NCBI RefSeq assembly: GCF_003946045.1
Contig: NZ_RHNW01000014.1
Location: forward strand, 1-64,000
Direction: 5' to 3'
Source: Levilactobacillus mulengensis
Lineage (GTDB): Bacteria > Bacillota > Bacilli > Lactobacillales > Lactobacillaceae
Length of the DNA stretch: 64,000 bases
Made by a program: the position numbers and the translations under genes. Below are positions 4,430 through 61,765 of the stretch, one piece after another. The notes under the pieces were generated by a model. That model was not told the origin of the DNA. It made no database searches and saw only the letters and a program-made list of their open reading frames with translations. Numbering within the stretch: the stretch's first letter is position 1; every line of letters begins with the position of its first letter.

Positions 4430-4680
4430 GCCTCCGGACTGGTGAAAATGGGCCTCGTCGCGTCCGTTCCCGGCGGTGAGCTCAAGCCGCCCTGCTGTGG
4501 GGCCGGTTCCAGCCAAGGAACGGGCTTCCACCTCAACTTTGCGCCTAAAAACCGGTCGCAAAGGTTGTCCCGTGGACTAGGCTGAAAAAAAACTTCAGCC
4601 AAGACCACCGACACAGCTGGTCGGCTTGGCTCACCTCTGGTCACTACCACGACTGGCCCATTTTCACCAGCCCTGCGGCT
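4430..4680 (+). repeat. Structured intergenic element, copy 1 (type A, complete)
   Basis: Complete copy with inverted ends: GGTGAAAATGGGCC near the left end and GGCCCATTTTCACC near the right. Inside are TCCGTTCCCGGCGG, CCTGCTGTGGGG, CGACACAGCTG and CCTCTGGTCACTA, the words shared by type A copies. An outer stem (GGTGAG...CAAGCCG with CGGCTTGG...CTCACC) encloses hairpins with stems CTTTGCG/CGCAAAG and GGCTGA/TCAGCC. It ends 46 nt before the acetyltransferase start codon, so it sits in or near that gene's promoter region. Confidence 0.85.
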
Positions 4681-4904
4681 AACACTTGTTTAGCCCGTTA
4701 CCGTGTCATTCTTCTTATTGTCAATGACTTGTTTGTTATTTTGAGATGACCTTATTTATTCTGTTGATGCTCACGCATTTTACTTGTAGGTGTCGCGATA
4801 CTTGTTAGAAACAGCATTGCTCAGAACCGTAAAATTACTAATCCATGCCGCCGACAACGCACAATCCCTTACACACCCCACCCTGGCCACTTTTCTTAAC
4901 GTTT

Positions 4905-5099
4905 GTGAGCGACCAGAGGCAACCTTGCGGACGCAGCTGTGTCGATGGCATTGGTCGGGGTTCTTTCCCGACCTAGGGCATGGGACGACCTTGGAAACTC
5001 GCGCTTCTCAGCGAGGTTTCAAGGCGAGACAGAGGACCGCCCCTCAGGCCGCAGTCGGTCCCCACAGCAGCGGGAGCAAGGCTTGCCGCCGGGAGCGCA
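4905..5099 (-). repeat. Structured intergenic element, copy 2 (type A, ends missing)
   Basis: Inverted orientation copy without terminal inverted repeats. GACCAGAGGCAACC, CAGCTGTGTCGATGG, CCCCACAGCAG and GCCGCCGGGAGCG are the reverse complements of the family words. The variable hairpin here is GGTCGGG/CCCGACC. It lies beyond the araA terminator. Bases 4681-4904 hold nothing I can identify. Confidence 0.8.
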
Positions 5100-5114
5100 A
5101 AGAACAAGCGATAA

Positions 5115-5158
5115 GAAAAGTGGCCGTCCGCCTTACCGGCGAGCGGCCACTCCTTTTC
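5115..5158 (-). terminator. araA terminator
   Basis: Arms AGTGGCCG (5119-5126) and CGGCCACT (5144-5151); on the minus strand the hairpin is followed by TTTTC. It lies 10-50 nt past the araA stop and ends the araBDA transcript. Confidence 0.8.
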
Positions 5159-5166
5159 AATCAACT

Positions 5167-6591
5167 TTACTTAATGAAAGCCTTGGTCATGCCAACCATG
5201 GTAGCGTAGTCTTCCATTTGTTCTTCCGTCAAGGAGAAGGAAAGCATGGTGTGGTGACCACCACCGGCCTTCATCCATTCCAGGGCACCGGTCTTCAAGC
5301 CAACCTTTGGCGTCCAGAGTTGCTTAGCAACTGGCAACTTAGGCGTTTCAGCTTCTGGCTTGTTCGCGTCTACGGCGTAACTGATCATCTTGAAGCCGTC
5401 ACGGAAGTCCGCAACAGTGACGTCAATGGCGTCACCTTCGGAACCAGTGAAGACCAAACGAGCAGGGTCAGCCTTACCACCGATGTCCAATGGGTGAACT
5501 TCAACGCGTGGCTTGTCGGAAGCGATTGAAGGGTCAACTTCCAGCATGTGAGAACCGAGGATGGCTTCGTGGCCCTTCCGCAGATCCAACGTGTAGTCTT
5601 CCATGAAGGCCGTCCGGTCGTTGTGGGACATAATCTTCATAACCCGGCCCAAGGCAGCGGTCTTCCAGTCACCTTCAGCACCGAAGCCATAACCATCACG
5701 AATCAACAATTGTGCGGCTAAACCAGGAAGTTGTTCCATCCCCCAGAGGTCTTCGAAGTTCGTGGTGAAGGCCGTGTAACCGCCCTTTTCCAAGAAACTC
5801 TTGATTCCCAGGTATTGCTTCAATTGGACGCGAACAGAGTGGGTGTATTTGTCAGCATCGTTATCGCCTTGAACCATTTCGTAACGAGATTCGAGGTCGG
5901 CGTATTCCTTGTCGATGTCAGCGTCAGCAACCTTGCTGATTTCTTCAACTAAATCACCGATACCGTAGTAGTCGACAGTCCAGCCCATCTTGATCTGTGC
6001 TTCAACCTTGTCACCTTCAGTAACGGCAACGTTACGCATGGTATCGCCAAAGCGCGCAACCTTAACCTTGAAGCTTTCGTTGTAAGCGACGGCAACGTCT
6101 TCCCAACGCGCAATTTGTTCTTGCACGTCGTCGTCACCCCAGTAGCCGTAAACAATCTTGTTGTTCTTTTGTAAACGGGCGTTGATGTAGGCGTATTCGC
6201 GGTCACCATGGGCACTTTGGTTCAAGTTCATGTAATCAAAATCGATGTCGGCGTAAGGAATGTTGTTCAGGTATTGGGTAGCCAAGTGCAGCAATGGCTT
6301 TTGTAATAATTCCGTCCCACGGATCCAGTTCTTGGCTGGGGAGAACGTGTGCATCCAAGTGATCACACCGGCAACCTTGTCGTTGTAGTTAACTTCCTTC
6401 ATGAAGTTCGTGATACTTTCAGCGGTCGTCATGACATCCTTGAAGACCACCTTGTAAGGCAACTTGCCGCTAGCGTTCAACTTGTCGGCGATGTCTTGGG
6501 CATCCTTGGCAACGGACTTCAATTGTTCTTCACCATACAGGTGTTGGGAACCGGTAACAAACCAAAATTCATAATCTGGAACTGATAACAT
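5167..6591 (-). CDS. araA: L-arabinose isomerase
   Basis: Cytoplasmic Mn-dependent isomerase that converts L-arabinose to L-ribulose, the first catabolic step. The 474-aa length is that expected for the family. The N-terminus [16 protein letters not shown] is the AraA signature, and the C-terminal GGGHHTMLS carries one of the metal-binding His regions; [18 protein letters not shown] is also typical. It is the last gene of the araB-araD-araA operon, separated from araD by about 360 nt that contain a structured repeat. The start ATG at 6591 is preceded by AAAGGAGTG. A strong terminator follows. Confidence 0.97.
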
Positions 6592-6651
6592 AATAATGAC
6601 ACTCCTTTTAATTTTTTATCTTTAAGTTTCGTTTGACAGGTTAAGCTGGCC

Positions 6652-6940
6652 GCCTCCGAGACGGTGAAAACTCACGATACCCCAGAAGAAGCTGAGCGTG
6701 CGACTGACTATGACAATGACTGTTCAATGAACGACAGTCACTCCGCGTCGTCATATCGTTGCCGCCGAAGCCAAGTAGGTACAGAATCCCGTGGTAGTGA
6801 TGTTAGGCCGGCGTTCTTCCGGGCTTACATCACTGGATGGGGTCAAGCCTCACGCCTTTGTGAGGCTTGGACCCAAGGCCGAAGACCGCTCTTTGGCTTC
6901 GGCCGTGCCTCATGGGATGGCGTACCTACTTGGCGAGGCA
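6652..6940 (-). repeat. Structured element inside the ara operon (copy 3, divergent)
   Basis: A divergent member of the intergenic family, between araD and araA. A 13-bp perfect inverted repeat (6770-6782 and 6922-6934, GCCAAGTAGGTAC/GTACCTACTTGGC) closes a domain with hairpins AGTGATGT/ACATCACT, GTCAAGCCTCAC/GTGAGGCTTGGAC and a GGCCGAAG/CTTCGGCC hairpin. A degenerate terminal repeat (GCCTCCGAGACGGTGAAAA) lies at 6652-6670; no right-hand end is visible. It would be transcribed within the araBDA mRNA. Confidence 0.65.
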
Positions 6941-6954
6941 TCCAGGTAAGGATA

Positions 6955-7686: not shown

Positions 7687-7711
7687 ATTCTTTCTCCTTA
7701 ACTATCAGTGC

Positions 7712-14456: not shown

Positions 14457-14720
14457 CGCCTCCGGGCTGGTTAAAATGGGCCGGGACGCGGGGCTGTCCG
14501 TTCCCGCCGGCGAGCTCAAAGTGCCCTGCTGTGGGGCCGGTTTCCGCCTGAGGACCGGGCTCCCACCTCAACTTTGAGCCAAAGATCGGTCTCAAAGGTT
14601 GTCCCATGGACTAAGTAGCGAAAAACACGCTACTTAGTCCATCGACACAGCTGGTCACTTTGGCCCGCCTCTGGTCACTAACATCCACCAACGTGGTCCA
14701 TTTTCACCAGTCCTGCGGCT
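14457..14720 (+). repeat. Structured intergenic element, copy 4 (type A, complete)
   Basis: Ends GCCTCCGGGCTGGTTAAAAT and ATTTTCACCAGTCCTGCGGC. Hairpin A is a perfect 13-bp stem GGACTAAGTAGCG/CGCTACTTAGTCC; hairpin B is CTTTGAG/CTCAAAG; the outer stem reads CAAAGTG/CACTTTG where copy 1 has CAAGCCG/CGGCTTG, a clear set of compensatory changes. It lies between the symporter terminator and the GH51 gene. Confidence 0.88.
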
Positions 14721-16445: not shown

Positions 16446-16486
16446 TTTTATTTTTTTGATACATATTTGCGTTCTTACTGAACCTT

Positions 16487-16545
16487 CTCCGGCTGGAACC
16501 GGCCCCACAGCAGAGCAGCTTGAATTCACCGCCGGAAACGGAAAG
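16487..16545 (-). repeat. Structured intergenic element, copy 5 (fragment)
   Basis: CTCCGGCTGGAACC, GGCCCCACAGCAG and CACCGCCGGAAACGGA are reverse-complement type A words; only the segment from hairpin C to the conserved GTTCCCGGCGG end is left. Confidence 0.65.
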
Positions 16546-16562
16546 TCGATCCCTTTTCATCC

Positions 16563-26711: not shown

Positions 26712-26756
26712 GCCACGTCCTTCTTCCACAATTGTTGTGCAAATCAAACTAGTTAT

Positions 26757-26837
26757 GTCGTTCCCGGCGGTGGATTCACCGTTCCCTGCTGTGGGGACCG
26801 GTTCCAGACTGAGGGGCGGTCTTCCACCTCTGGTCAC
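26757..26837 (+). repeat. Structured intergenic element, copy 6 (internal deletion)
   Basis: GTTCCCGGCGGTGGATTCACC, CCCTGCTGTGGGG and GGTTCCAG lead directly into CCTCTGGTCACG. Hairpins A and B of the type A element are missing, so this is an internally deleted copy. Confidence 0.7.
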
Positions 26838-26952
26838 GCAAACTAGCCTGATTTGGACACAATCTTCTTATGCATTTTCTCTCAACTTAATCGAGACTAT
26901 CAATAACTTAATGTAGTATACCATAAGCCCGTTTCACCTTCGACGGCCACAG

Positions 26953-26986
26953 AAAAAAGCCCCCACCATTACTGATGAGGGCTTCC
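26953..26986 (-). terminator. pepN terminator
   Basis: AAGCCC and GGGCTT flank a loop; on the minus strand followed by TTTTTTCTG. Confidence 0.75.
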
Positions 26987-31448: not shown

Positions 31449-31907
31449 CTACTTCTTGTAGAAATAAGTTCGCTGCGGCGTGCCATCACCAAAACGGTCG
31501 AGGAAGACTAGGGCTGTCTTTCCCTTATGGTTCTCTTTCTTAATCGTTTCGGCAAACAAACTGTTCATGCGATACCAACTGATTCGCCAAGTTTCCGCGT
31601 GCTTGCCCTTCTTGACGCTAAGGTCACTGTGATTGTAGTAATGTGATTTTTTCTTGCCGGACCATTTAGCCAGCGTTTCTTTCTTGCCATGATAATTAGA
31701 CTTGTAGTCGTAAACGTACTTCGAGATCTTAAGCGTGTGAATGTTGGCGGAATCTTCATCATCAACGCACACCCAAGTCCCTCTGAATGATTTGGGCATC
31801 GTTGTGTAGTGAATCTTCGCCTCGGCCGTCGTGTTCGGGGTCGCAACACCGCCTAAGGCTAGACCAGCCGCTACTGCCATTGTTGAAAAAATCAATTTAG
31901 ATTTCAT
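31449..31907 (-). CDS. Small secreted protein with PKSFRGTW motif
   Basis: 152 aa with signal peptide MKSKLIFSTMAVAAGLALGG and cleavage near TTAEAK. Mature start IHYTTMPKSFRGTWV is almost identical to the protein at 32745 (IHYTTTPKSFRGTWV), as are the GKKKSHYYNHSDLSVKKGK block and the end DRFGDGTPQRTYFYKK. Clear paralogues. Unknown function, rich in Lys, Tyr and Ser. Confidence 0.78.
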   Translation of the reverse strand: MKSKLIFSTMAVAAGLALGGVATPNTTAEAKIHYTTMPKSFRGTWVCVDDEDSANIHTLKISKYVYDYKSNYHGKKETLAKWSGKKKSHYYNHSDLSVKKGKHAETWRISWYRMNSLFAETIKKENHKGKTALVFLDRFGDGTPQRTYFYKK

Positions 31908-31949
31908 AATATCTATCGCTCCCTTACTAAATTTGGTGACTGTTGCCGC

Positions 31950-33218: not shown

Positions 33219-33269
33219 GTTAACCTTCACTCCTCAGTTTTAGTAAAGCGCTTTCATCTATGTGTTTAC

Positions 33270-37400: not shown

Positions 37401-37788
37401 CAACTGGCTTCTGCGGTGCGACTGGTGTTGGTGTCTTATCACCATTATCACTACCAGTCGACTTGTCCGTCGCTGGCTGGACGGGCGCAGACCCAACTAC
37501 TGGCTTCTGTGGTGCGACTGGTGTTGGTGTCTTATCACCATTATCATTACCAGTCGACTTGTCCGTCGTTGTCGCAGCTGATAGTTTGGCCTGTGCGCCA
37601 CTTGTCGCTGACTGACCGGAAATGGTTGCCGTAGTAGTTGGCGTATTATCGGCAGCCTGTGCGGTCTGACTGGCCTGTGGTCCAGCGACGATTCCCACTG
37701 CCATACTGGTAACAGTGATACCAGCAACTAGCCAGCCTCTATGTGATTTGTACATTTTGTAATGTGTTTTACGTTCATAATCCCTCAT
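34456..37788 (-). CDS. LPQTN-anchored LRR/MucBP-like surface protein
   Basis: 1110-aa adhesin-like protein. A KxYKxGKxW-type signal (KMYKSHRGWLVAG) leads to cleavage near residue 46. Then come a Pro/Thr/Lys-rich low-complexity region with two 32-residue repeats (76-139), a region with internalin-like leucine-rich repeats (about 345-460, LREVQLPTASINDISALG), MucBP-like beta domains (TVTIKDATTGKTLQVLD; AVHEQITYQDKQQKTV), a KPTKPTKPTKP wall-spanning stretch and the sortase signal LPQTN at 1077-1081 followed by a hydrophobic helix and KKRRF. Start ATG at 37788 has AGAGGGGGACC upstream. The gene is the only one between 44-bp direct repeats, which suggests it arrived by insertion next to guaA. Confidence 0.9.
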   Translation of the reverse strand: MRDYERKTHYKMYKSHRGWLVAGITVTSMAVGIVAGPQASQTAQAADNTPTTTATISGQSATSGAQAKLSAATTTDKSTGNDNGDKTPTPVAPQKPVVGSAPVQPATDKSTGSDNGDKTPTPVAPQKPVVESAPVQPADGGTPANDGIVAPKEPSSNQTTPAPGEKPTARTAVTTAAPFKTGISVQDTDDLTNKVAATPAFNISKTDQLQYTYNHVDSAGHNTDLRVVDGYDASHQVQGAGTWLGETYANQIAQDAKGIDPVTSAKYGTQLMYIDEWLPDYGLQYFLWQNNYAKTYATIADFRNNFSKAELATLTSIYSNDNLQAAAGNQPTTYYQSIMAMQTLEGLQNAVNLQVLDISPNLLVSLEAYGTGEKNSNLWDIRALSGLKNLREVQLPTASINDISALGNHDKLTDVSLFDNQITDISPLATDKNLLISKASLFQQHVLLAPIKVSNKLAKGANSTDAGMLTYTTPSFIIKDLTASNLPIQGFDNASDLLYPSLYPSSSDAGNLNSNTLTWYNLLNSTDSTYGSLSTTWSDTNSNFAGYIIQPYELAANVSDLNVNIQLLQANDQQLNLAPATLISGDIGSSVDVQQNATVQTLLNQQLSKGYTFSGLILDGTGLYSDYAAKNGKANAQTSWATTLGDESKNWTILFYKGVMPWTVSVGYGVKDANGNYTPITNADGTAVTANYKGTSADKLALTDYERDFDDYVYTGAETSADGQTWTDISQAADIPYVNDIQAVRMVYAQAKKATVTIKDATTGKTLQVLDATTNPELKGAIGSTSSFDSNTVIAPELAKGYTVVSDTTKNADGTSAIVFAKDATANLDYTITLAHAFKTVEQAVHEQITYQDKQQKTVAAPVTKTVNFATVTDQVTQDAVTYSKLDATATPELDVTGKPTDASWVVYQAGSDLAFAAVKNPSVPGMHVVSTTDPANVLTQTVAQPVTPTTGDLSFVVTYDANPTSGGGDNGNNGGGTVTPPVTPTTPTPGDNGGAAAAVVTPKKPTKPTKPTKPNQGGQAVVVNKKTIRGAGHQAGGTVTAGGQGAKVQALTAPVEKTASVAKTATATTDLKAAQLPQTNEQQLNGLAVIGLALLGALTSVVGWKKRRF
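37372..37563 (-). repeat. Two 96-bp tandem repeats in the surface-protein gene
   Basis: Two units encoding DKSTGxDNGDKTPTPVAPQK and PVVxSAPVQPAx. Only a few bases differ, so the copy number is probably variable between strains. Confidence 0.9.
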
Positions 37789-38243
37789 GATTGGTCCCCC
37801 TCTTAACATGACCAAGCTCAGGTAATGTGATGTCAAATATAGTCGTTACCCTTGTTATTACTATCCATTATAGGCAGTTTGTGAGTGACGTTCAATCCCC
37901 TAAAACATTATTGTTGCCAAATATTGTTGCAACGTCAAGTGAGCCCCCGTTACGTTTAGCTCTACAGGTGGTTCATGGGTGCTTGAATTTTTATAGTTTA
38001 GCCGTATTTAAGTGGGAAAAACGGACAATTTTATGTAGGTAATAAACCTTTATCGAATCGTATCATCATTTTTTTGCGGTTACACGGTCGATGTTGCCAC
38101 AGCATCCTAGGGCTACTAAAAACCCATCGAGAGCCTAACTGGTCTCAATGGGTTGCGTCCGATAAATCTACTTGTGTGCGTGAACCGACTCTCTGTGAAA
38201 AACAATTTTATACCCCAATACCCGTAAGTTCTTGTCCACCACT
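37789..38243. other. Upstream region of the surface-protein gene
   Basis: No gene. A hairpin AACCCATCGAGAGCC / GGTCTCAATGGGTT (38121-38154) is followed on the minus strand by TTTTTAG and looks like a terminator with no obvious gene of its own; it may be a leftover of the inserted segment. The AT-rich part 37850-38060 probably holds the promoter. Confidence 0.5.
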
Positions 38244-40004: not shown

Positions 40005-40260
40005 GGTCGCCACCTGCGGCTGACAGCCCCACGTTAAAATGGTGCGCAAGTCCGTTCCCGGCGGCAGGCTCAAGACGCCCTGCTGTGGGGAACGGTTCCA
40101 GCCAAAGACCGGTCTTCCGCCTCGCCTTGAAACCTCGCTAAAGTTCGCGAGTTTCCAAGGTCGTCCCGTGCTCTAGGCAAGGAAAATACCCTTGCCAAGA
40201 CCACCGACACAGCTGAGCATCTTGGCCTGCCTCTGGTCACTAACGTTGACACATCCATTT
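40005..40260 (+). repeat. Structured intergenic element, copy 7 (type A)
   Basis: TCCGTTCCCGGCGG, CCTGCTGTGGGG, CGACACAGCTGAG and CCTCTGGTCACTAACG present. Hairpin A is GGCAAGG/CCTTGCC, hairpin B GAAACCTCGC-type with GCGAGTTTC. Ends are degenerate (ACGTTAAAATGGTGC; CATCCATTTATAAC). Lies upstream of guaA. Confidence 0.82.
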
Positions 40261-40383
40261 ATAACGGGTCAAACCCAACCAGATTCAACACTGTTCATGT
40301 CCATTACCTATTTTCAATAACAATTAGCCAAACAGCACACCAGCAGAACCATCAACTCGCTATCTGCGGTTCAAACCCGTGTC

Positions 40384-40560
40384 AGCCGCAGGGCTGGTGA
40401 AAATGGGCTCAGCCGTGGGAGTTGCCTTAGCGGTTTACCGCTTAGGCAACTGATATCTTTGAGACGCGATTTTCGGCTCAAAGTAAGGCCGAAGACCGCT
40501 TCTCAGGCTTCGGGCGTTCGCCCACAGCGTCACGGGCCAGTTTTCACCAGCCCGAAGGCG
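40384..40560 (+). repeat. Structured intergenic element, copy 8 (type B, complete)
   Basis: Shorter subtype with the same ends (AGCCGCAGGGCTGGTGAAAA and TTTTCACCAGCCCGAAGGCG). Interior: CCGTGGG...CCCACAGCGTCACGG closing part, hairpins GTTGCCTTAGCGG/CCGCTTAGGCAAC, CTTTGAG/CTCAAAG and GCCGAAG/CTTCGGG. Nearly the same unit recurs at 61593-61765. Confidence 0.85.
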
Positions 40561-40564
40561 AATT

Positions 40565-42111: not shown

Positions 42112-42306
42112 TGTGCTGGGTCTTTCCGCCTGCGGGCGTTTAGGCCAACCGGCCTGTGGGGCCCACCCGAAGCCAAAGAGCGGTCTTCGGGTTCGGTTTG
42201 AGCCACGAAAGTCACGTGTCTCAAACGCGTCCCGTGCTGTAAGGTCGGAAAATCACCGGTCTAACACCACCGACACAGGCGCTGGCAAGCCTAACGCCCT
42301 CCGGCT
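42112..42306 (+). repeat. Structured intergenic element, copy 9 (type C)
   Basis: Divergent subtype that shares the plan rather than the sequence: CCTGTGGGGCCC, hairpins CCCGAAG/CTTCGGG, GTTTGAG/CTCAAAC, AGGTCGG/CCGGTCT (wobbles), then CCACCGACACAGGC. Upstream of coaA. Bases 42310-42490 hold nothing identifiable. Confidence 0.7.
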
Positions 42307-42496
42307 CCAAGACCGACCATACGTTGAATTGAACCCGCACAAGTGTCTAGGCTACTAAGTTTACAAGCCTTGGCACTGCTTGCTTTCTGTGCACAACAGG
42401 TCAAACAATTAAATCCTATTATACCGCAGATACGCTGGTTACCGGGCATGATTTCACTAGATTGATAGCGGATTCAGTTGTGGCATGGGCGGATAC

Positions 42497-44909: not shown

Positions 44910-45112
44910 TTCAGTCCGTTCTACCTGCGTCAGTTAGGTATTCCACCCCTGTGGGACAACCCTTTGAAGCCATAGGTCGGTCTTCAAAGGCGGTGGTGAG
45001 CCTTGCAAAATTCACAAGTCTCCCCACACGACCCGCGTTGTAAGGCCGGCAACCCACCGGTCTAACAACGCCGACACAGGGAACTCCATACCTAACTGAC
45101 TCCGGCGCCACT
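44910..45112 (+). repeat. Structured intergenic element, copy 10 (type C)
   Basis: Hairpin C is CCTTTGAAG/CTTCAAAGG, hairpin A AGGCCGG/CCGGTCT, with CCCCTGTGGGA and CGCCGACACAGGGA as the closing words. Same plan as copy 9. Upstream of helD. Confidence 0.7.
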
Positions 45113-45308
45113 CACATAGTAATTGTGGTGGCTAAGCTAACTTATTTCATGCGCCAACTTTATTTCATAACTCTATTTTAGTCTAAGCTACTAGATAAGT
45201 CATTGTCTTAACAGTTAGGCCGAATGATTAGTAAGGCGACCTACCGACGTCAACAATGAAACCAACAACATTAATCAAATATGCATGACTACGGGCTAAA
45301 CTAGTGGA

Positions 45309-45510
45309 CGCCGCAGGGCTGGTGAAATTAGGCCGCCCTCTGAGACCGACTTTTGGGCTCAAAGTCGGGGTGAAAGCCCGCTCCTCAGGCTGGAACCGGG
45401 CCCCATAGCAGGGCCGCTTGAATCCACCGGCGGGAGCGCCAGCACCACCTATGTCAGTGACGGGCGTGCGCCCACAGCGTCACGGCCTATTTTCACCAGT
45501 CCGGAGGCAC
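45309..45510 (-). repeat. Structured intergenic element, copy 11 (composite A/B)
   Basis: Starts with GCCGCAGGGCTGGTGAAATT, contains reverse-orientation type A hairpins B and C and the word GGGCCCCATAGCAGGGCC, then switches to the type B end GCGCCCACAGCGTCACGGCC and TTTTCACCAGTCCGGAGGC. A recombinant between subtypes. Remaining bases of 45113-45600 show no gene. Confidence 0.75.
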
Positions 45511-47547: not shown

Positions 47548-47766
47548 GTGTGGGGTCCAAACTGACGTTACCAGCGCCTTGCCGGGCAGAAAAAATGGAC
47601 CGGAACGCTGGGGGCAGGACGCTGGAAGCCAAAAGACGGTCTTCCAGCTCGCTTTGAACCTCTGAGAAATGAGTTTCAAAGTCGCCATTCTCTGAAGAAC
47701 ACAGAGAATCCCCCGGCTGAGTCCATTTTTTCTGCCCTATCGGCTAACATTGTGGGCACCCACACC
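47548..47766 (+). repeat. Structured intergenic element, copy 12 (type D)
   Basis: Ends GGCAGAAAAAATGGAC and GTCCATTTTTTCTGCC, a different terminal repeat. Inside, hairpins GCTGGAAG/CTTCCAGC, CTTTGAA...TTCAAAG and ATTCTCTG/CAGAGAAT with a GGGGG/CCCCC closing stem keep the family plan. Confidence 0.7.
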
Positions 47767-47875: not shown

Positions 47876-48140
47876 CGGCTGCAAGGATGGTAAAATTGGC
47901 CCGCGAAGACAGTCCCAGTGACCAGAGGTGGACCAAGGTTTCCAGCTGTGTCGATGGTCTTAATAGCGTGGTTTTCGCTATTTAGAGCATGGGACAATCT
48001 TTGAGACCGCTTCTCAGGCTCAAAGTTGAGGTGAAAGCCCGATTTTTGGCTGAAACCGGCCCCACAGCAGGATACCTTGAGGCCACCGCCGGGAACGACA
48101 TGGCACAGCGTCACGGCCTATTTTCACCATCCCGGAGGCA
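47876..48140 (-). repeat. Structured intergenic element, copy 13 (type A, type B-like end)
   Basis: Reverse type A body: GACCAGAGGTGG, CAGCTGTGTCGATGG, hairpins AATAGCG/CGCTATT and CTTTGAG/CTCAAAG, CCCCACAGCAGG, CACCGCCGGGAACG; followed by GCACAGCGTCACGGCC, which is the type B 3' end. It finishes 50 nt before the phosphatase start. Confidence 0.82.
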
Positions 48141-48891: not shown

Positions 48892-48951
48892 TAACGAAAC
48901 TTGTAAGTGATTGTCGTAGTTGTCTGGGTTAGAATATGCTATATTGTCAGC

Positions 48952-49062
48952 ATAGAAAAAGGCCGGCGTTGGACCGCCGACCTTACAAGCCGCTTCAAGA
49001 GCGGAGACAGTAACGAGAAATGAGTCGCCTACTCTGTCAAAGAATTAGAGGGCGGCTTTTTT
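48952..49062 (+). ncRNA. Type I antitoxin RNA, copy 1 (toxin lost)
   Basis: Extended -10 TGCTATATT (TATATT at 48940-48945). The RNA has a 5' hairpin GGCCGGCG/CGCCGACC, a second hairpin CCGCT-TCAAG-AGCGG, the shared GAGACAGTAACGA and a 3' terminator ending GGCGGCTTTTTT. Same as copies 2 and 3, but the toxin reading frame beyond it is gone. Confidence 0.75.
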
Positions 49063-49093
49063 GATTACTTCCGATCGTTATATGACAATCAAC
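49063..49093 (-). pseudogene. Toxin remnant of copy 1
   Basis: On the minus strand GTTGATTGTCAT, then AACGATCGGAAGTAATC, matches the last codons of the toxin in copy 2 (ATTGATCGTCAT, AACGATCGAAGATAATC) with a 2-nt insertion. Everything upstream is missing. Confidence 0.6.
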
Positions 49094-49176
49094 AATGGGT
49101 TTAAATTCTCTATGTTTTCACGCTAATTTGAGTGGCTTGAATAGTTATTCGAGCTAGAATATGTTATATTTTAAGC

Positions 49177-49288
49177 ATACAAAAAGCCGGTGGTTGCACA
49201 CCGACTTTACAAGCCGCTTCAAGAGCGGAGACAGTAACGACAGATGAGTCGCCCTAAACTATCAAAGCTTATAGAGGGCGGCTTTTTG
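49177..49288 (+). ncRNA. Type I antitoxin RNA, copy 2
   Basis: TATATT at 49165-49170. 5' hairpin with GGTG/CACC where copy 1 has GGCG/CGCC, a compensatory change. CCGCT-TCAAG-AGCGG follows, and a terminator GCCCT...AGGGCGGCTTTTT. It converges on the toxin gene, and the two 3' ends overlap in the terminator. Confidence 0.8.
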
Positions 49289-49289
49289 A

Positions 49290-49406
49290 TTATCTTCGAT
49301 CGTTATGACGATCAATTAGTATCATCAATGTGGCAAACGCCAACATCAATGACAGCGCTTGGAACACGCTCATGGACTGCGAAACCTTTCTTTGGATTTG
49401 TTCCAT
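49290..49406 (-). CDS. Holin-like type I toxin peptide
   Basis: 38 aa: a basic N-terminus (MEQIQRKVSQS), one hydrophobic helix (MSVFQALSLMLAFATLMI) and a charged tail (DRHNDRR). This is the plan of the TxpA/BsrG and putative holin-like toxins of Firmicutes, which insert in the cell membrane. GAGGTGAGGCAC before the ATG at 49406 is a very good ribosome site; an internal in-frame ATG at 49373 gives a 27-aa version. The mRNA 3' part is antisense to the antitoxin RNA. Confidence 0.75.
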   Translation of the reverse strand: MEQIQRKVSQSMSVFQALSLMLAFATLMILIDRHNDRR

Positions 49407-49608
49407 GTGCCTCACCTCAGAAGGAAAAGACAGTCCCCGCTCACAAAACTTCCTGCATTGTCTAGTGTAATAGAGTGGTCACCATCCTCTAGGTAATTTG
49501 TCTTATAAATAATTTTATATGTAAATTTCAATTTAGCTCACCGCATCATCCGAGTATTTTACAAACAACAGATTCCCTTTTCTCCTGAGAATATGCTATA
49601 TTGTAGAC

Positions 49609-49720
49609 GTACAAAAGGTCGGTGGTTGCACACCGACCTTACAAGCCGCTTCAAGAGCGGAGACAGTAACGACAGATGAGTCGCCCTAGCCTGTCAAAGC
49701 TTATACTGGGCGGCTTTTTT
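49609..49720 (+). ncRNA. Type I antitoxin RNA, copy 3
   Basis: Extended -10 TGCTATATT (49597-49602). Hairpin GGTCGGTG-GTTGCA-CACCGACC, then the conserved CAAGCCGCTTCAAGAGCGG and GAGACAGTAACGACAG segments and a GGCGGCTTTTTT terminator. Converges on toxin copy 3. Confidence 0.8.
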
Positions 49721-49722
49721 GA

Positions 49723-49803
49723 TTACTTTCGATCGTGACGATCGATTAGTATCATCAATGTGGCAAACACCAACATCAATGGCAGCGCTTGAAACACGCT
49801 CAT
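49723..49803 (-). CDS. Holin-like type I toxin, copy 3 (frame-shifted N-terminus)
   Basis: The hydrophobic core is intact (MSVFQALPLMLVFATLMI, tail DRHDRK; 26 aa). Relative to copy 2 one extra C (ATCCC instead of ATCC) puts the upstream ATG at 49837, which has the good ribosome site GAGGTGAAG, out of frame. Translation of the toxin would have to start at the internal ATG at 49803 after a weak GAAAGG site, or the copy is silenced. The 60-aa frame covering this region is not expected to be a protein. Confidence 0.6.
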   Translation of the reverse strand: MSVFQALPLMLVFATLMILIDRHDRK

Positions 49804-50070
49804 AGACTGTGAAACCTTTCTTTGGGATTTTTTCCATACGCTTCACCTCAGAAGGAAAAAGACAGCCCCCGCTCACAAAACTTCCTGCATTTCCCAGTGT
49901 AACAGAGTTATCGCCATTCCCTCGGTAAGTCGACTTACAAACAATTCAATAAACCGTTCCATCTCTATGGCCAGCAACTAATCACGGTTGCTGGCCCTTT
50001 TTGCATCCTCCAAGTACATAAGCTGTGTAGCCAACTGTGAATGGTTTGTACCAAGTCAGCAAATTAAGTT

Positions 50071-50137: not shown

Positions 50138-50164
50138 CAAACCAGCGACCTGGTCAACGCACAA

Positions 50165-50348
50165 CCAGGAGCCGGAGGAAGCCAGGGTGGAGACGGCTGT
50201 GTCGGTGATGTTGGGCGGGTGGGCTTGCCGGCCTTACATCACGGGGCGACTTTTGAGACGCCGATTCTGGTGGCTTAAAAGCGAGCTGGAGGACCGCTCC
50301 TCAGGCCGGAAGCGGTCCCCACAGCAGGCGGAACCCTGGAAGCCGCAG
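50165..50348 (-). repeat. Structured intergenic element, copy 14 (no terminal repeats)
   Basis: GGCTGTGTCGGTGATGTT, hairpin GTGATGT/ACATCAC, a TTTTGAG/CTTAAAA-type hairpin, AGGACCGCTCCTCAGGCC and GCGGTCCCCACAGCAGGCGG. Resembles copy 3 in hairpin A. Bases 50349-50440 are C/A-rich without a gene. Confidence 0.7.
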
Positions 50349-50437
50349 GCGGCCATCCCCCACTGTCCTTGACCCAAAAGCCTTTGACCTAAATCCCCAA
50401 ACCAATCCCAAGCCTAGCCCGAAACCCCAAGCCCAAA

Positions 50438-53581: not shown

Positions 53582-53592
53582 TTATTTACCTC

Positions 53593-54697: not shown

Positions 54698-54722
54698 GTC
54701 ATAACTGATTTAAACGTGTTGC

Positions 54723-56351
54723 TTACTTAGCAATGTAAGCGCGACTGAAGTCCCAGTTAGCACCGGTTGGGAAGTAAATCAATCCCTTGACATCGGACTT
54801 GACCAGTTGGGCTTTCCCTTGTTGGTAAACGGGGATGACACCTTGGTCATTTAAGATAGTCTTTTGGGCGTTAACCATGTCATTCCAACGAGCAGTGTTG
54901 TTGTTGGCATCCTTACCAGTGGCTGCGGCAACGTACTTGTCGTAAGCCTTGGAAGCCCATTTCCCGTTGTTGTAAGAGTTACCAGAAGTGAACAGAGACA
55001 GGAATGAAATTGGGTCAGGGAAGTCAGCACCCCAAGCAGAGATAACGGCATCGAATTGGCCATTTTGTGAACGGCTCAAACGCGTCTTGAATGGTAAGTT
55101 ACTGTTGGTAACCTTTAAGCCATCCAACTTAGCCCATTGACTCTGGATAAATTCGGCACTGTTCTTACCGGCTGGCGTGTCATCGGCCATTAAGGTCAGT
55201 GAGTAGCTAGAACGGCCCGTTTCCTTCAAAGCTTGCTTCCAAAGCTTTTGTGCCTTGGCCAGATCTTGTGAAGTTGCGGATGGAACAGCAGCAGCGGTGT
55301 TGAAGTCCGTTCCCTTGTTTTCAGCTAAACCAGTTGAAACTAAGCCCTTTGCGGCAGTCGAACCATCAGCTAAGACCTTGTTGACGAATTGGTTCCGGTT
55401 GATAGCCAGTGATAAGGCTTGACGAGCCTTCTTGTTCTTCATCATTGAATCTTTCTTTTCGTTCAATTCAATGTAGAAGGTTGAGGCACTCTTACGTTCA
55501 ACGTATTGCTTGTCGTTCTTGTAGTTCTTAGGTTGTTGACCGCTCAAGTAAGTTGCATCAAGCTTGCCACTTTGGTACTGACTCAAAGAAGTTTGGGGAT
55601 CCTTCATCGTCTTGAAGTTGATCTTCTTTAGTTTAACATTCTTAGCGTCCCAGTACTTAGTGTTTTTGCTTAATGTCCAGTTATCGGACGTACCAGTCCA
55701 GTAAGTTAACTTAAATGGACCGTTGTAGACGTTATCTTGGGCATTCGTTGCGTATTTCTTACCGTACTTTTGAACAACTGACTTATTTTGTGGGAAGAAC
55801 ATTGGACTTGCAACCAATGATGGGAAGTAACTAGTGGCTTGCGTTAACGTGACAACCACCTTGTAGTTCCCTTCGGCCTTGATTCCTAAGCTAGAAACTG
55901 GCTTCTTCTTGTTCATGATAGCGTTGGCGTTCTTAACCTGCGCGTACATGTAAGCGTATTGCGAAGCGGTCTTAGGATCAACGGTCCGTTGCCAAGCGTA
56001 AACGAAGTCTTTAGCGGTTACCTTGTCCCCGTTACTCCAGTTAGACTTACGCAAGTTGAAGGTGTAAGTCTTACCATCTTTGGACTTGGTGTAGCTCTTA
56101 GCGACCCCTGGGTGAATAGAACTGTTCTTACCGATCCGGAGAAGACCTTCACCGGTGTTGTTCATCGTTTCCCCAGAAACAACGTCCGTGGCGGTAGAAG
56201 AATCCATTGAAGGTAAGGCGGAATTTTCCATCCAGTTTAACGTCTGCTTGCTAGCCTCGCTAGAACTGTTCGATGATGATCCACACGCTGCAAGTAACAC
56301 AGCGGCAAATGTCGCGACCGTTCCGAGTTTGACTGCCGAATTGATTTTCAT
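54723..56351 (-). CDS. oppA: Oligopeptide-binding lipoprotein OppA1
   Basis: 542 aa. Lipobox LLAACG gives the lipidated Cys; SBP_bac_5 fold with the conserved NTGEGLLRIG, GDKVTAKDFVYAWQRTVDP and KARQALSLAINRNQFV. Binds extracellular peptides and delivers them to OppBC. ATG at 56351 is preferred (GAGGGGTTGG upstream). First gene of the operon; closely paralogous to oppA2. Confidence 0.95.
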   Translation of the reverse strand: MKINSAVKLGTVATFAAVLLAACGSSSNSSSEASKQTLNWMENSALPSMDSSTATDVVSGETMNNTGEGLLRIGKNSSIHPGVAKSYTKSKDGKTYTFNLRKSNWSNGDKVTAKDFVYAWQRTVDPKTASQYAYMYAQVKNANAIMNKKKPVSSLGIKAEGNYKVVVTLTQATSYFPSLVASPMFFPQNKSVVQKYGKKYATNAQDNVYNGPFKLTYWTGTSDNWTLSKNTKYWDAKNVKLKKINFKTMKDPQTSLSQYQSGKLDATYLSGQQPKNYKNDKQYVERKSASTFYIELNEKKDSMMKNKKARQALSLAINRNQFVNKVLADGSTAAKGLVSTGLAENKGTDFNTAAAVPSATSQDLAKAQKLWKQALKETGRSSYSLTLMADDTPAGKNSAEFIQSQWAKLDGLKVTNSNLPFKTRLSRSQNGQFDAVISAWGADFPDPISFLSLFTSGNSYNNGKWASKAYDKYVAAATGKDANNNTARWNDMVNAQKTILNDQGVIPVYQQGKAQLVKSDVKGLIYFPTGANWDFSRAYIAK

Positions 56352-56998: not shown

Positions 56999-57246
56999 GA
57001 CGGGGAAATGAGATTGTGTCGGTCATGTCCGTTCCCGGCGGTGGACTCAAGCGGGCCGGCTATGGGGCCGGTTCCAGCCTGAGAGACGGGCTTCCACCTC
57101 AACTTTGCGCCTGAAAAGCGGTCGCAAAGGTTGTCCCATGCTCTAAGCTGAGAAAGTCGCTCAGCTTAGACCATCGACACAGCTGGCCGGCTTGGCCCCC
57201 CTCTGGTCACTCACATCTACCAAACACCCTCACATTTTCACTATTG
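56999..57246 (+). repeat. Structured intergenic element, copy 15 (type A)
   Basis: TCCGTTCCCGGCGGTGGACT, GGCTATGGGGCCGGTTCC, CGACACAGCTGG and CCTCTGGTCACTCAC. Hairpin A is TAAGCTGAG/CTCAGCTTA (9 bp), hairpin B CTTTGCG/CGCAAAG. Ends degenerate. Just downstream of oppA2. Confidence 0.85.
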
Positions 57247-57266
57247 AAATGGTATCCATAACTAGC

Positions 57267-58895
57267 TTACTTAGCGATGTAAGCTTTGCTGAAGTCCCAG
57301 TTGGAACTAACTGGGAAGTAAGTGATGCCCTTAACCTTTGACTTAACCAATTGTGGCTTGCCGCTTTGGTAAACCGGAATGATCCCCTGGTCCTTCAACA
57401 GAACCTTTTGGGCATCAATCAGATTTTGCCACCGAGCAGCGGGCTTGTTGGCGTTGGTCGTCGTGGCTTCCTTGACCAGCTTGTCGTAGGTCTTGTTCTT
57501 CCATTTCCCGTTGTTGTAGGAATTGTCGGACGTGAACAGGGACAGGTCGGTGATTGGGTCTGGGAAGTCAGCCCCCCACAGCGTAACCACGGCATCGAAC
57601 TGGCCACTAGCTGAACGCGCTAACCGCGTCTTGTATGGCAAGTTTGCGTTGGTGACCTTAAAGTTAGGCAACTTGGACCATTGGCTTTGCACAAATTCAG
57701 TTGTGCTCTTGCCTTCAGGCGTGTCATCGGCCATCAAGGTCAAGGCGTAGCTCTTTCGACCAGTTTCCTTCAGCGCTTGGTTCCACAACTTCTTTGCCTT
57801 AGCAGCGTTGTGTGCCGTGGCGGCAGGAATTGTCCCCTCAGTGGCGAAGTCCTTGCCATTGCGGATGGCCAGGCCACTGGTAACGATTCCCGTAGCGACC
57901 TTGGAGCCGTTATCCAGCACCTTGTTCACAAATTGATTCCGGTCGATGATGAGAGACAAGGCTTGACGGGCCTTCGGGTTCTTCATCATCGTGTCTTTCC
58001 TCTGGTTCAATTCCAGGTAGGCGACCCGGGAACTGTTCCGTGCGTGGTACTCTTTATCAGTCTTGTAATTTTTCGGCTGTTGCCCACTCAAGTAAGTGGC
58101 ATCTAGCTTCCCGCTCTGGTATTGACTCAAAGCCGTTTGCGGATCCTTAACTGCGGTAAATTTGATGTGCTTGAGCTTAACGGACTTCGCGTTCCAGTAC
58201 TTTGTGTTCTTGGTCAGCGTCCAGTTGTCGGACGTCCCAGTCCAGTAAGTCAGCTTAAAGGCCCCGTTGTAAACGTTGTCTTGGGCGTTGGTGCCGTACT
58301 TCTTGCCGTACTTCTCTACAGCCTTTTGATTCTGCGGGAAGAAGGCAGTTTGGGCAACCAACGTTGGGAAGTAGCTGACGGGATGAATCAAGCTCACTTG
58401 GACCTTGTAGTCCCCGATGGCCTTGATCCCCAGCGTGGAAACCGGCTTCTTGCCATTCATGATGGCGTTGGCGTTTTTCACATCAGCGTATAAGTAGGCG
58501 TATTGGGACCCCGTCTTCGGGTTGACTGTGCGTTGCCAGCCGTAAACGAAATCTTTGGCAGTTACTTTATCCCCGTTGCTCCAGTTGGATTTCCGGAGGT
58601 TAAACGTGTAGGTCTTGCCGTCCTTGGACTTGCTGTAGCTCTTGGCGACGGCGGGATGCGTGGTACTGTTCTTGCCAAACTTCAACAGACCCTCACCTGT
58701 GTTGTTCAGCGTTTCACCGGAAACGACGTCGGTTGCCAACGAACTGTCCATGGTTGGTAACGCGGAGCTTTCCATCCAGGTCAAGGTTTGATCCTTGGCT
58801 TGGCTACTGCTGCTAGAAGATGAGCCACACGCGGCTAACGCAATGGTGGTTAGCGCGGCGACCGTCCCTAGCTTAATGACTGACTTGACTCTCAT
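57267..58895 (-). CDS. oppA: Oligopeptide-binding lipoprotein OppA2
   Basis: 542 aa, same length and layout as OppA1. Lipobox ALAACG; GDKVTAKDFVYGWQRTVNPK; KARQALSLIIDRNQFV. Sequence differences are scattered over the whole length, so both look functional and probably differ in peptide preference. ATG at 58895 (GAGGGGTCGG upstream). It is a separate unit, flanked by type A repeat elements in the same orientation. Confidence 0.95.
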   Translation of the reverse strand: MRVKSVIKLGTVAALTTIALAACGSSSSSSSQAKDQTLTWMESSALPTMDSSLATDVVSGETLNNTGEGLLKFGKNSTTHPAVAKSYSKSKDGKTYTFNLRKSNWSNGDKVTAKDFVYGWQRTVNPKTGSQYAYLYADVKNANAIMNGKKPVSTLGIKAIGDYKVQVSLIHPVSYFPTLVAQTAFFPQNQKAVEKYGKKYGTNAQDNVYNGAFKLTYWTGTSDNWTLTKNTKYWNAKSVKLKHIKFTAVKDPQTALSQYQSGKLDATYLSGQQPKNYKTDKEYHARNSSRVAYLELNQRKDTMMKNPKARQALSLIIDRNQFVNKVLDNGSKVATGIVTSGLAIRNGKDFATEGTIPAATAHNAAKAKKLWNQALKETGRKSYALTLMADDTPEGKSTTEFVQSQWSKLPNFKVTNANLPYKTRLARSASGQFDAVVTLWGADFPDPITDLSLFTSDNSYNNGKWKNKTYDKLVKEATTTNANKPAARWQNLIDAQKVLLKDQGIIPVYQSGKPQLVKSKVKGITYFPVSSNWDFSKAYIAK

Positions 58896-59020: not shown

Positions 59021-59275
59021 CGCCTCCAGGCTGGTGAAAACTGGACCTGGTCGCGTCCGTTCCCGCCGGCGAGCTCAAGGAACCCTGCTATGGGGCCGGT
59101 TCCAGACCCCAGCCCGGTCTTCCACCTCAACTTTGAGCCTGAGAAACGGTCTCAAAGATTGTCCCGTGGGCTAGGCTGGCAAAAGACACCAGCCAAGGCC
59201 ACCGACACAGCCGGGCACCTTGGCTCGCCTCTGGTCACTTCCACAACTGGCCCATTTTCACCAGCCCTCCGGCTA
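59021..59275 (+). repeat. Structured intergenic element, copy 16 (type A, complete)
   Basis: Ends GCCTCCAGGCTGGTGAAAAC and CCCATTTTCACCAGCCCTCC. Hairpin A GGCTGG/CCAGCC, hairpin B CTTTGAG/CTCAAAG, hairpin C AGACC/GGTCT, outer stem CAAGG/CCTTG. Upstream of oppA2. Bases 59276-59455 hold nothing identifiable. Confidence 0.88.
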
Positions 59276-59455: not shown

Positions 59456-59698
59456 CAGTGAAAATACATGGTCAGTGTGAGTGACCAGAGGTGGGCCAAG
59501 CCGGCCAGCTGTGTCGGTGTTCTTTGCTGAGCGATTTTCTCAGCTTAGAACACGGGACGACCTTTGTGACCGCCTTTCAGGCACAAAGTCGAGGTCCCAG
59601 ACCGCTTCTCAGGCTGGGACCGACCCCATAGCAGGCCCGCTTGAGCCCACCGCCGGGAACGGACAACTAACCGCCACCCAATTTTCACTAGTTTGGGA
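59456..59698 (-). repeat. Structured intergenic element, copy 17 (type A)
   Basis: Reverse copy: CAGTGAAAATACATGG end, GACCAGAGGTGGGCCAAGC outer stem with GCTTGAGCCCAC, hairpins GCTGAG/CTCAGC, CTTTGTG/CACAAAG and GTCCCAG/CTGGGAC, CCCCATAGCAGG, CACCGCCGGGAACGGA, and end CCAATTTTCACTAG. It lies in the hflX upstream region. Confidence 0.88.
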
Positions 59699-59787
59699 CA
59701 GTTGGAAGCCTAACAACGCTTAATTTTTCGGTGTTTGCAAAGGAACATGTTATACTCAACGTATAGACTTTAAAGGAGGGTGATCTT

Positions 59788-61065
59788 TTGGAAGAAACCC
59801 CACGAACACCAGTCATCACGATTGGGTTGAACGCTGGTCAAGCCACGTTCGGCTACTCGATGACTGAACTGAAAAACTTGGTAGAGGCCAACAACATGAC
59901 GGTCGCTGAAGAAGTTCAGCAGTCATTGCCAAAGCCAAATCCAGGGACTTACTTTGGCACGGGTAAGGTTGAGGAATTAGCGACGATTGTTGCCGACAAT
60001 GGTGTCGATACCATTGTCGTAAACGATGAGCTGTCCCCTAGCCAAATCCGGAACCTGGAGGCTGGTACCAAGGCCCGCATCATGGACCGGACCGGTTTAA
60101 TTTTGGAAATCTTCGCTAACCGGGCACAATCCCGTGAAGCCAAGCTCCAAGTCCAGCTCGCCATGCTGCAATACCAACTCCCTCGTTTGCACACCAGCGC
60201 TTCACAACGGCTGGACCAACAAACGGGTAGCGGTGGCGGCGGTGGGTTCACCAACCGTGGTGCCGGTGAATCGCAAACTGAAATGAGTCGGCGGACCATT
60301 CAACGGTCGATCAACCACGTCAACCATGAACTGAAGGAAATCAACCAGGCGGCCGCCACGCAACGGCAACAACGGGAACGAAATGAACTCCCTTCCGTTG
60401 CGCTGGTCGGTTACACCAACGCCGGCAAGTCCACGTTGATGAACGCCCTGGTTCGTGAATTTGGTAAGAGCGAAGAAAAACAGGTCTTCGTGAAGAACAT
60501 GCTGTTCGCCACGCTGGATACCAGCGTCCGTCAGCTAACCTTCCCCGACCAAAAGAAGATGCTACTGAGTGATACCGTTGGATTTGTGAGCCAACTCCCT
60601 ACCCAACTGGTCAAAGCCTTCCGTTCCACGTTAGCCGAGGCCGCCAACGCCGACCTATTGATTCAGGTCGTTGACTATGCTGACCCAAACAAGGAATCAA
60701 TGATGGCCACCACGGAACAGACGCTGCAAGACATCGGCGTCACCGACGTGCCAATGATCACCGTCTTCAACAAGGCCGACCTGACGGAAGCCCACTACCC
60801 GAACCGCGTGGGTGACCAACTCATCCTGTCAGCCCAAGACCAAGCGTCCGTCGATGCTTTGGTTGTGGCCATCAAGGAAAAGGTCTTCCACAACTACGTA
60901 ACGGCCAACTTCCTGGTGCCATTCGCAGACGGTGAGGTCGTCGCCTACATGAACGACCACGCCAACGTCTTAGACACCAACTACGAAGCAGAAGGCACGG
61001 CCCTGAAGGTTGAACTTCAAGAAGCCGACTTCGACCGCTTCAAGAAATACGTCGTCACCGAATAA
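59788..61065 (+). CDS. hflX: GTPase HflX
   Basis: 425 aa ribosome-associated GTPase that rescues stalled ribosomes. N-terminal HflX domain (LVEANNMTVAEEVQQSLPK, PGTYFGTGKVEEL, NDELSPSQIRNLE), the glycine-rich linker (QQTGSGGGGGFTNRGAGESQ), then the G domain: G1 GYTNAGKSTLMNAL, G3 DTVGFVSQLPTQLV, G4 TVFNKADL. Start TTG at 59788 with AAAGGAGGG 7 nt upstream. Single gene with terminator. Confidence 0.95.
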   Translation: MEETPRTPVITIGLNAGQATFGYSMTELKNLVEANNMTVAEEVQQSLPKPNPGTYFGTGKVEELATIVADNGVDTIVVNDELSPSQIRNLEAGTKARIMDRTGLILEIFANRAQSREAKLQVQLAMLQYQLPRLHTSASQRLDQQTGSGGGGGFTNRGAGESQTEMSRRTIQRSINHVNHELKEINQAAATQRQQRERNELPSVALVGYTNAGKSTLMNALVREFGKSEEKQVFVKNMLFATLDTSVRQLTFPDQKKMLLSDTVGFVSQLPTQLVKAFRSTLAEAANADLLIQVVDYADPNKESMMATTEQTLQDIGVTDVPMITVFNKADLTEAHYPNRVGDQLILSAQDQASVDALVVAIKEKVFHNYVTANFLVPFADGEVVAYMNDHANVLDTNYEAEGTALKVELQEADFDRFKKYVVTE

Positions 61066-61077
61066 TTTACACACCAA

Positions 61078-61116
61078 AGACATCCCCCGACAAATAGTCA
61101 GGCGGATGTCTTTTTG
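61078..61116 (+). terminator. hflX terminator
   Basis: AGACATCC/GGATGTCT stem followed by TTTTTG. Confidence 0.85.
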
Positions 61117-61133
61117 TTTAGGATAAATGAAAA

Positions 61134-61183
61134 GAGCCCACCCACGCCAGTTCCAACGAACTGAAGTGAGTGAGCTCCAATTA
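61134..61183 (-). terminator. Terminator facing hflX
   Basis: On the minus strand GAGCTCACTCAC pairs with GTGGGTGGGCTC (wobbles), with an inner CAGTTC/GAACTG hairpin, then TTTTCATTT. Wobbles pair best on the minus strand, so it probably ends the amino-acid ABC operon after the repeat array. Confidence 0.65.
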
Positions 61184-61205
61184 AAATCAAAATGAAAACA
61201 ACACC

Positions 61206-61765
61206 GACCGGACAAACGACCAGCGAAGTCCCGGGCTAAACAAGTGTCAGCCGCAGGGCTGGGAAAACCGGGCCGGTCGTGGCAGTGACAAAAGGCGATC
61301 TAAGGTGCCCGGCTGTGTCGATGGTCTTGGCCATCTTACAAATTCACACAACCAAATACCCAAGCACAGGCAACGGCCAACCGGACAAATGACCAGCGAA
61401 GTCCGGGCTAAACCAGTGTCAGCCGCAGGGCTGGGAAAACTGGGCCGGTCGTGGTAGTGACCAGAGGCAAGCCAAGGTGACCAGCTGTGTCGATTAGCCA
61501 TCATCCAAACGCAAACAACCAAATACCAAGCGCAGGCGACAACCAACCGGACAAACGACCAGCGAAGTCCGGGCTAAACCAGTGTCAGCCGCAGGACTGG
61601 TGAAAATGGGCTCAGCCGTGGGAGTTGCCTTAGCGGGTTTCCCGCTTAGGCAACTGCTATCTTTGAGACGCGTTTCTCAGCGGCTCAAAGTAAGTCTGGA
61701 GACCGCCCTTCGGCTCCAGACGTGCGCCCACAGCGTCACGGCCCATTTTCACCAGCCCGGAGGCG
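61206..61765. repeat. Tandem triplicated structured element (copy 18)
   Basis: Three units starting AACCGGACAAACGACCAGCG or close variants: 61206-61378, 61379-61543 and 61544-61765. The first two hold only the end (GCCGCAGGGCTGGGAAAAC) and the 5' part of a reverse type A body (GTGACCAGAGGCAAGCC, CAGCTGTGTCGAT). The third carries a complete type B element with GTTGCCTTAGCGG/CCGCTTAGGCAAC and CTTTGAG...CTCAAAG hairpins and end TTTTCACCAGCCCGGAGGCG. Confidence 0.88.

Follow-up and report, generated by a model that had tools for sequence, protein, structure and literature searches.

Intergenic regions of the 64,000-nt stretch of Levilactobacillus mulengensis DNA analysed here (the window, taken at its full length) carry a family of structured repeats, each a branched unit of about 190 nt. 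The presence of such a family, first proposed in an initial annotation of the window, is confirmed, and the family extends far beyond the window in size. Its fold and the strand on which that fold is kept, its copy number, a 5'-to-5' rule for neighbouring copies, pairing between the flanks of a copy, exchange of cores and hairpins in the cases compared, and a spread across Lactobacillales are established. With moderate confidence, we read these repeats as part of a clan of non-autonomous palindromic elements resembling the EFAR repeats of enterococci, which insert into hairpins and are under selection for the fold kept on one strand.

The window was searched with nhmmer and with two covariance models, R1 and the cross-species model R2; E-values from these models and from R3, described below, are rough, as the models are home-made. 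The R2 scan gave 18 matches, comprising 16 copies (E < 3e-11), one deletion derivative and one reverse-strand shadow, which was dropped. One fragment (16486-16546) and two partial copies (61245 and 61416) were seen in the window by nhmmer alone. The initial count of "about 18" elements therefore holds, as 16 strong copies, a deletion derivative, and fragments or partials, and the six versions of hairpin A quoted with it were located in the copies at 4462, 4901, 14496, 40050, 47910 and 57027. The copies are as follows:

4462-4652, minus strand: type-A copy with a shared outer inverted terminal repeat (ITR; about 4400-4700, by eye); R1 221.3 bits, R2 E = 9.5e-44
4901-5100, plus strand: type-A copy standing 5'-to-5' with the 4462 copy; R2 E = 3.6e-36
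6753-6947, plus strand: divergent copy; R2 E = 1.5e-26
14496-14686, minus strand: type-A copy with the shared ITR; R2 E = 1.6e-38
16486-16546, plus strand: fragment, the 3' part of an element; nhmmer E = 1.7e-12, absent from the R1 and R2 matches
26756-26845, minus strand: internal deletion derivative lacking hairpins A and B; R1 E = 3.8e-9, R2 E = 1.3e-5 across 26756-26980
40050-40248, minus strand: type-A copy with a long hairpin B; R2 E = 2e-42
40377-40563, plus strand: type-B copy standing 5'-to-5' with the 40050 copy; R2 E = 4.6e-24
42124-42313, minus strand: divergent copy; R2 E = 2.7e-31
44914-45119, minus strand: divergent copy; R2 E = 4e-27
45277-45441, plus strand: composite A/B copy, partner of the 44914 copy; R1 E = 8.4e-20, R2 E = 2.9e-11
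47580-47745, minus strand: divergent copy; R2 E = 2.4e-21
47910-48100, plus strand: type-A copy, partner of the 47580 copy; R2 E = 1.4e-41
50163-50354, plus strand: divergent copy; R2 E = 5.4e-31
57027-57218, minus strand: type-A copy without ITR; R2 E = 1.6e-38
59055-59246, minus strand: type-A copy with ITR, in the left slot of the gap between an oppA-like gene and hflX; R2 E = 2.3e-38; the same slot in L. lanxiensis is filled by a type-B-like element
59473-59664, plus strand: type-A copy without ITR, in the right slot, partner of the 59055 copy; R2 E = 4.9e-40
61245-61332, plus strand: partial copy, 5' part with ITR; nhmmer E = 1.3e-16
61416-61494, plus strand: partial copy, 5' part with ITR; nhmmer E = 1e-17
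61580-61768, plus strand: type-B copy with hflX and an ABC permease gene convergent on either side; R2 E = 1.4e-27

At 17 units of ~190 nt in 64 kb, element copies account for about 5% of the window DNA; extrapolated from the window, they would fill several percent of the genome. Across the 22 of 31 hflX loci that hold any copy, the density is 0.27 per kb. The word CCGTTCCCGGCGG, allowing up to two mismatches, occurs 14 times in the window against 2.07 expected, a number reached in none of 100 shuffles, and a few of these occurrences lie outside elements. In the 3.11-Mb genome there are 82 exact CCGTTCCCGGCGG matches, none of the same pattern read backwards, and at least 150 element matches with E below 1e-49. 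The family was not recognised initially; scans of the window and of 18 other loci gave no Rfam match at or above threshold, and the open-licence papers searched contained no description of such elements in Lactobacillaceae.

For analysis of the fold, 58 stretches of the same genome together with the window yielded 93 copies, 92 of them with the usual core length, and 89 were aligned by sequence only (alignment A1). RNAalifold found 46 pairs in A1, 27 of which were changed on both sides. On the strand described in the initial annotation, pair columns held more A-C than G-U, and the alignment was therefore turned to the opposite strand, named R as the strand whose fold is conserved (alignment A2, 87 rows). 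On R, alifold gives 62 pairs; 97.2% of the resulting 5,392 cells are paired and 448 cells are changed on both sides, compared with at most 47.5% paired in slid controls, and none of 500 shuffles reached any of the pairing measures. G-U outnumbers A-C by 124 to 22 in the 5,392 cells (5.6-fold) and by 344 to 95 in a second count; by pair column, G-U is favoured in 27 and A-C in 8, with 27 ties. Folding is also more stable on R in 76 of the 87 copies, and both lines of evidence place the conserved fold on the reverse complement of the strand originally described. This strand asymmetry in the tolerance of wobble pairs argues for selection on the fold itself.

Covariation was tested with a G statistic, corrected by average product correction (APC), against 60 tree-simulated alignments. 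In the own-genome alignment, seven column pairs beat all 60 null maxima, and all seven are structural. Paralogous covariation, initially taken as proof of selection on the structure, is strong, but covariation alone is insufficient as such proof because whole hairpins and cores are exchanged among loci. In a model-fitted alignment across species, with 133 rows from 48 loci, 91.4% of cells are paired and every one of the 62 pairs is changed on both sides, against 41.7% or less paired in slid controls; this alignment favours the model because it was built by fitting to it. Template switching at hairpins can keep arms complementary, and a purely mutational origin of the covariation, without selection, would account for the many changes from one Watson-Crick pair to another that lack intermediates (at columns 45/86, A-U 48, G-C 38 and G-U 0) as well as for flanks that are complementary copy by copy. 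We regard this origin as very improbable: such switching would wipe out internal-loop mismatches that are in fact strictly kept, and would handle G-U and A-C alike, whereas G-U is in 5.6-fold excess.

Read on R, the unit runs from stem P1 through P2 and P4 to hairpin A and then to a GGG/CCC stem enclosing hairpins B and C, a plan with two junctions, hairpin A standing at one and hairpins B and C at the other. P1 is formed on R by GTGACCAGAGG paired with CCGCCGGGAACGG-like ends. The constant words reported in the initial annotation were correctly placed, but several of them are not unpaired: CCGTTCCCGGCGG pairs with CTCTGGTCAC as the outer stem P1; the GCTGTG/CACAGC pairing reported with them is stem P4 of the fold. 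Internal-loop mismatches are the same in nearly all copies and, read on the complement, are tandem G-A and other purine oppositions on R. Type B, represented by 61580-61768, follows the same plan with different letters, and type-A copies with the ITR have B-like outer arms. The terminal GGTGAAAATGGGC repeats first ascribed to type A as a whole are present in only 40 of the 93 type-A copies of the genome (flank filter), and double as the outer stem of the type-B subtype. Variation in length is modular, and includes B-like ends around an A core, exchanged hairpins B and C, and deletion derivatives.

The remaining 53 of the 93 copies lack shared ends, and many copies sit between inverted flanks specific to their locus. 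The 5' and 3' flanks of a copy are better pairing partners for each other than for the flanks of other copies: where the shared ITR is missing (53 copies), the flank score is 12.55 against 7.43 for swapped flanks (permutation maximum 8.45), and 36 of these copies score no lower than the 95th percentile of the swapped flanks. In 121 copies from other species, the corresponding scores are 9.20 and 6.92 (permutation maximum 7.44), with 44 at or above the 95th percentile. Windows placed 300 nt further out show no such pairing (6.67 against 6.84 swapped; 6 of 116 at or above the 95th percentile). Copy-specific pairing of flanks is the expected trace of integration into hairpins with their arms retained. 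The flanking stems would then be the arms of hairpin targets entered by the unit, as has been reported for EFAR, and the folded single R strand, as single-stranded DNA or RNA, would be what is copied or integrated; the unit would consequently be selected mainly for its own spread.

Of the 93 copies sampled in the genome, 77 have a called gene on either side, 9 are at the edge of a stretch and 7 fall inside mechanically called open reading frames (ORFs). Among 46 cases of neighbouring copies less than 700 nt apart in the window and in hflX loci L093-L122, 40 are 5'-to-5', 6 are in tandem and none is 3'-to-3'; the own-genome sample, which was picked for type A, gave 35 of 57, 21 and 1. On its 3' side a copy is separated from the next gene by a median of 75 nt, and on its 5' side by 431 nt (126 copies, with genes called mechanically). 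Inverted duplication was considered as the source of the pairs and rejected, as seven head-to-head partners are on average 0.753 alike against 0.778 among all copies.

Turnover was examined at orthologous loci. The window HflX is 99% identical to the HflX proteins of L. lanxiensis and L. wangkuiensis, and the two slots between the oppA-like gene and hflX were compared in these three species, which are ~93-96% alike. In the window and in L. wangkuiensis a type-A copy occupies the left slot, where L. lanxiensis has a type-B-like element, the outer flanks being the same. In the right slot the core stems differ with compensation while the flanks are unchanged. Between L. parabrevis and L. fuyuanensis, hairpins B and C are swapped in copies that are otherwise similar. 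The cleanest empty site was found in L. koreensis compared with L. andaensis. The 31 hflX loci comprise 29 from genomes titled Levilactobacillus or Candidatus Levilactobacillus and two from Lactobacillus sp.; relatives of L. brevis ATCC 14869 hold one or two elements at the hflX place where that strain has only one short terminator-like hairpin, located in the gap from hflX to the convergent gene (L112 after 11272, by eye).

The distribution of the family is restricted, as had been expected. Under stricter filters, R1 matched 42 of 201 Lactobacillaceae genomes (the L. mulengensis genome included), in 10 of 40 genera. With eight candidates scored per genome, R2 matched 33 of 295 Lactobacillales genomes and 2 of 299 across the phylum, these being L. 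mulengensis itself and one more genome of the same order. With up to 150 candidates scored, R2 counted at least 150 copies in G000, G015 and G052, 148 in G053, 125 in G061 and 79 in G099; lower counts were 24 in G316, 23 in G102, 12 in both G049 and G320, 11 in G080, 5 in G222 and 0 in G112, and two presumed streptococci had 6 and 4. Within Lactobacillaceae, copies per genome range from 0 to at least 150. A third model, R3, was built from 11 distant matches, and recovers ~175-nt copies in nine genomes of other families, all of which gave its seeds: 103 in G366, 85 in G330, 58 in G257, 46 in G222, 26 in G320, 17 in G308, 15 in G442, 10 in G354 and 8 in G297. R3 matches the L. mulengensis genome weakly (7 matches; 3 in G015), and finds none in G099, G316 or the presumed streptococci scanned. 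These covariance models connect low- and high-copy relatives across Lactobacillales.

Ten genomes of a genus labelled g43, which we infer to be Streptococcus from its Rfam match and pur genes, have one R2 match each (E <= 1e-4, eight candidates scored per genome). The match lies in sense within the pur operon, between purD and purE in two genomes and between purL and purF in one, as identified by profiles, and by eye in the rest; since the position is purD-purE in some genomes and purL-purF in another, the site itself differs. Three of these relatives in the purine operon are:

L155, 1501-1668
L157, 2995-3164
L158, 2889-3056

The Rfam family RF02616 (SSRC8_2) gave matches of 33-49 bits in 8 of 11 loci scanned, seven presumed streptococcal and one other. 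Hairpin B and the part following it align with SSRC8_2 at the R2 match, but all scores fall under the gathering score of 72. The SSRC8_2 name comes from an RNA that, according to PMC3675131, was detected on Northern blots of S. pyogenes. The streptococcal copy may have been recruited in the operon.

The sense position in the pur operon, the sub-threshold matches to a family named after a detected RNA, and the tandem G-A and purine-purine mismatches kept on R in nearly all copies would suit transcribed small RNAs or riboregulators, whose functional fold would be the one seen here. The transcription signals and the placement of copies make this quite unlikely. The last 100 nt upstream of 242 copies contain 21 sigma-70-like promoters in sense against 20 in antisense, so a promoter of the element's own is not supported; nor is a terminator, as no marked T-tract was found after R-strand copies in the same set. 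Nor is there a bias of orientation to genes among the 93 type-A copies (27 in tandem sense, 20 in tandem antisense, 15 divergent and 15 convergent), and the copies are very numerous.

A number of observations weigh against integration of an EFAR-like element as the full account. Flank pairing is confined to part of the copies, and the 5'-to-5' rule is left without explanation by this model; moreover, 45 of 83 occupied gaps contain only one recognised copy, compared with 37 with a 5'-to-5' pair and one with a tandem pair, and beside some of the single copies the long gap holds a truncated partner (by eye). The expected significance of covariation, clear in the own-genome alignment, is weak across species: when 127 copies from different species were aligned without regard to structure, two pairs rose above the null, neither of them exactly structural but each no more than two columns away from a structural pair, and structural pairs made up 14 of the top 20. 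In 108 orthologous comparisons, 130-600 nt remained between the flanks in 99 and less in 9, several of which are remnants by eye, and clean empty sites are rare. Comparison by eye of the matches listed revealed no copy in which the element's ends enclose an ORF; a classical MITE of a DDE transposon would share its ends with a full-length element that carries genes. Searches for the ends gave 142 matches to the 5' end and 109 to the 3' end, and the places listed pair mostly at ~160 or 238 nt, none spaced widely enough for a transposase gene (by eye). Partner enzymes were tried and rejected: Y1 transposase is present in 17 of 42 R1-positive and 39 of 159 R1-negative genomes and reverse transcriptase in 11 of 42 and 38 of 159, so neither tracks the element, in a comparison whose R1-negative class is impure, as it includes the R2-positive genomes G011, G014 and G082. 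RVT_1 was found in none of eight genomes of the genus. Plasmid and phage collections gave no match to one type-A copy, one ITR copy or two enterococcal-type copies, and IMG/VR gave none to one exact pattern, an absence that is odd for an active transposable unit.

Some of these observations would be expected if the elements served the host between transcription units, as insulators or as replication or nucleoid sites, and hence occupied fixed slots. The 99 comparisons retaining 130-600 nt can be taken as occupied, although the occupant can change; copies after hflX sit past its terminator (by eye); and the 5'-to-5' arrangement of 40 of 46 close neighbours and the lack of plasmid, phage or viral matches with the queries tried point in the same direction. 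We nevertheless find a host service unlikely, given that 9 of the 31 hflX loci have no match, with remnants seen by eye in L104, L105 and L119 and none in L. brevis ATCC 14869, and that genomes of the family range so widely in copy number.

EFAR-like integration through a folded strand remains our preferred reading. A bolder extension, possible but doubtful, is that the elements constitute a clan of mobile, protein-free nucleic acids that spans the order and spreads in the form of a folded single strand, in which the R fold would be what replicates, hairpins would serve as both body and target, cores would be exchanged, and one copy would have become fixed in the streptococcal pur operon. If true, such a clan would be a bacterial counterpart of short interspersed nuclear elements (SINEs), or a case of integration by a folded strand that has no dedicated partner enzyme. 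The family makes testable both the fold-driven spread of a non-coding element and the possible recruitment of a mobile fold in the streptococcal purine operon.

Other features of the window were recorded alongside the elements. A Type II Cas9 of 1,046 aa is encoded at 63-3203 on the minus strand, at the contig start (TIGR01865, 665.9 bits); an element copy lies 1.3 kb upstream of cas9, and no connection is claimed. Two 96-nt direct repeats, 95% alike, lie at 37376-37567 within a large ORF (34456-37836) that perhaps encodes a repetitive surface protein. At 48932-49832 there are three related 132-nt stretches, spaced by 224 and 432, as well as a 97-nt repeat 91% alike, separate from the element family. 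Repeats of 71% identity in neighbouring ORFs (31770-31922 with 33081-33233, and 54721-55020 with 57265-57564) are probably paralogues, the second pair being two OppA-like genes.

Three kinds of known element invite comparison with the family. REP/BIME elements are numerous intergenic palindromes, paired in inverted orientation and associated with RAYT (Y1) transposases. The present family is likewise numerous, intergenic and arranged in inverted pairs, but its unit is a branched one of 190 nt and the Y1_Tnp domain does not track with it. Integron attC sites conserve structure over sequence and act as one folded strand; the elements described here also conserve a fold rather than letters on a single folded strand, but differ in length and ends, and no cassette was seen (integrase was not sought). 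The EFAR palindromic repeats of enterococci, reportedly described by De Gregorio et al. in 2009 (FEMS Microbiol Lett 292:7-12), are said to be intergenic, ~170 nt long and present in tens of copies, to be modular and to integrate into unrelated stem-loops, whose arms are kept at their ends. The description of Efa-1 in PMC2267715 is of a 163-nt intergenic repeat with 65 sequences, 18 of them complete, and an adjacent pair of stem-loops; we take Efa-1 to be EFAR. The L. mulengensis family shares with EFAR its general size and its intergenic, palindromic kind, at ~190 nt and at least 150 copies in its own genome, and also a modular make-up with flank arms, which here show copy-specific complementarity on average. 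It differs in its three-hairpin plan with P1, P2 and P4, and EFAR is not known to show 5'-to-5' pairing or a preferred folding strand. The closest described kind is the EFAR repeats of enterococci, and the family and EFAR probably belong to one clan.

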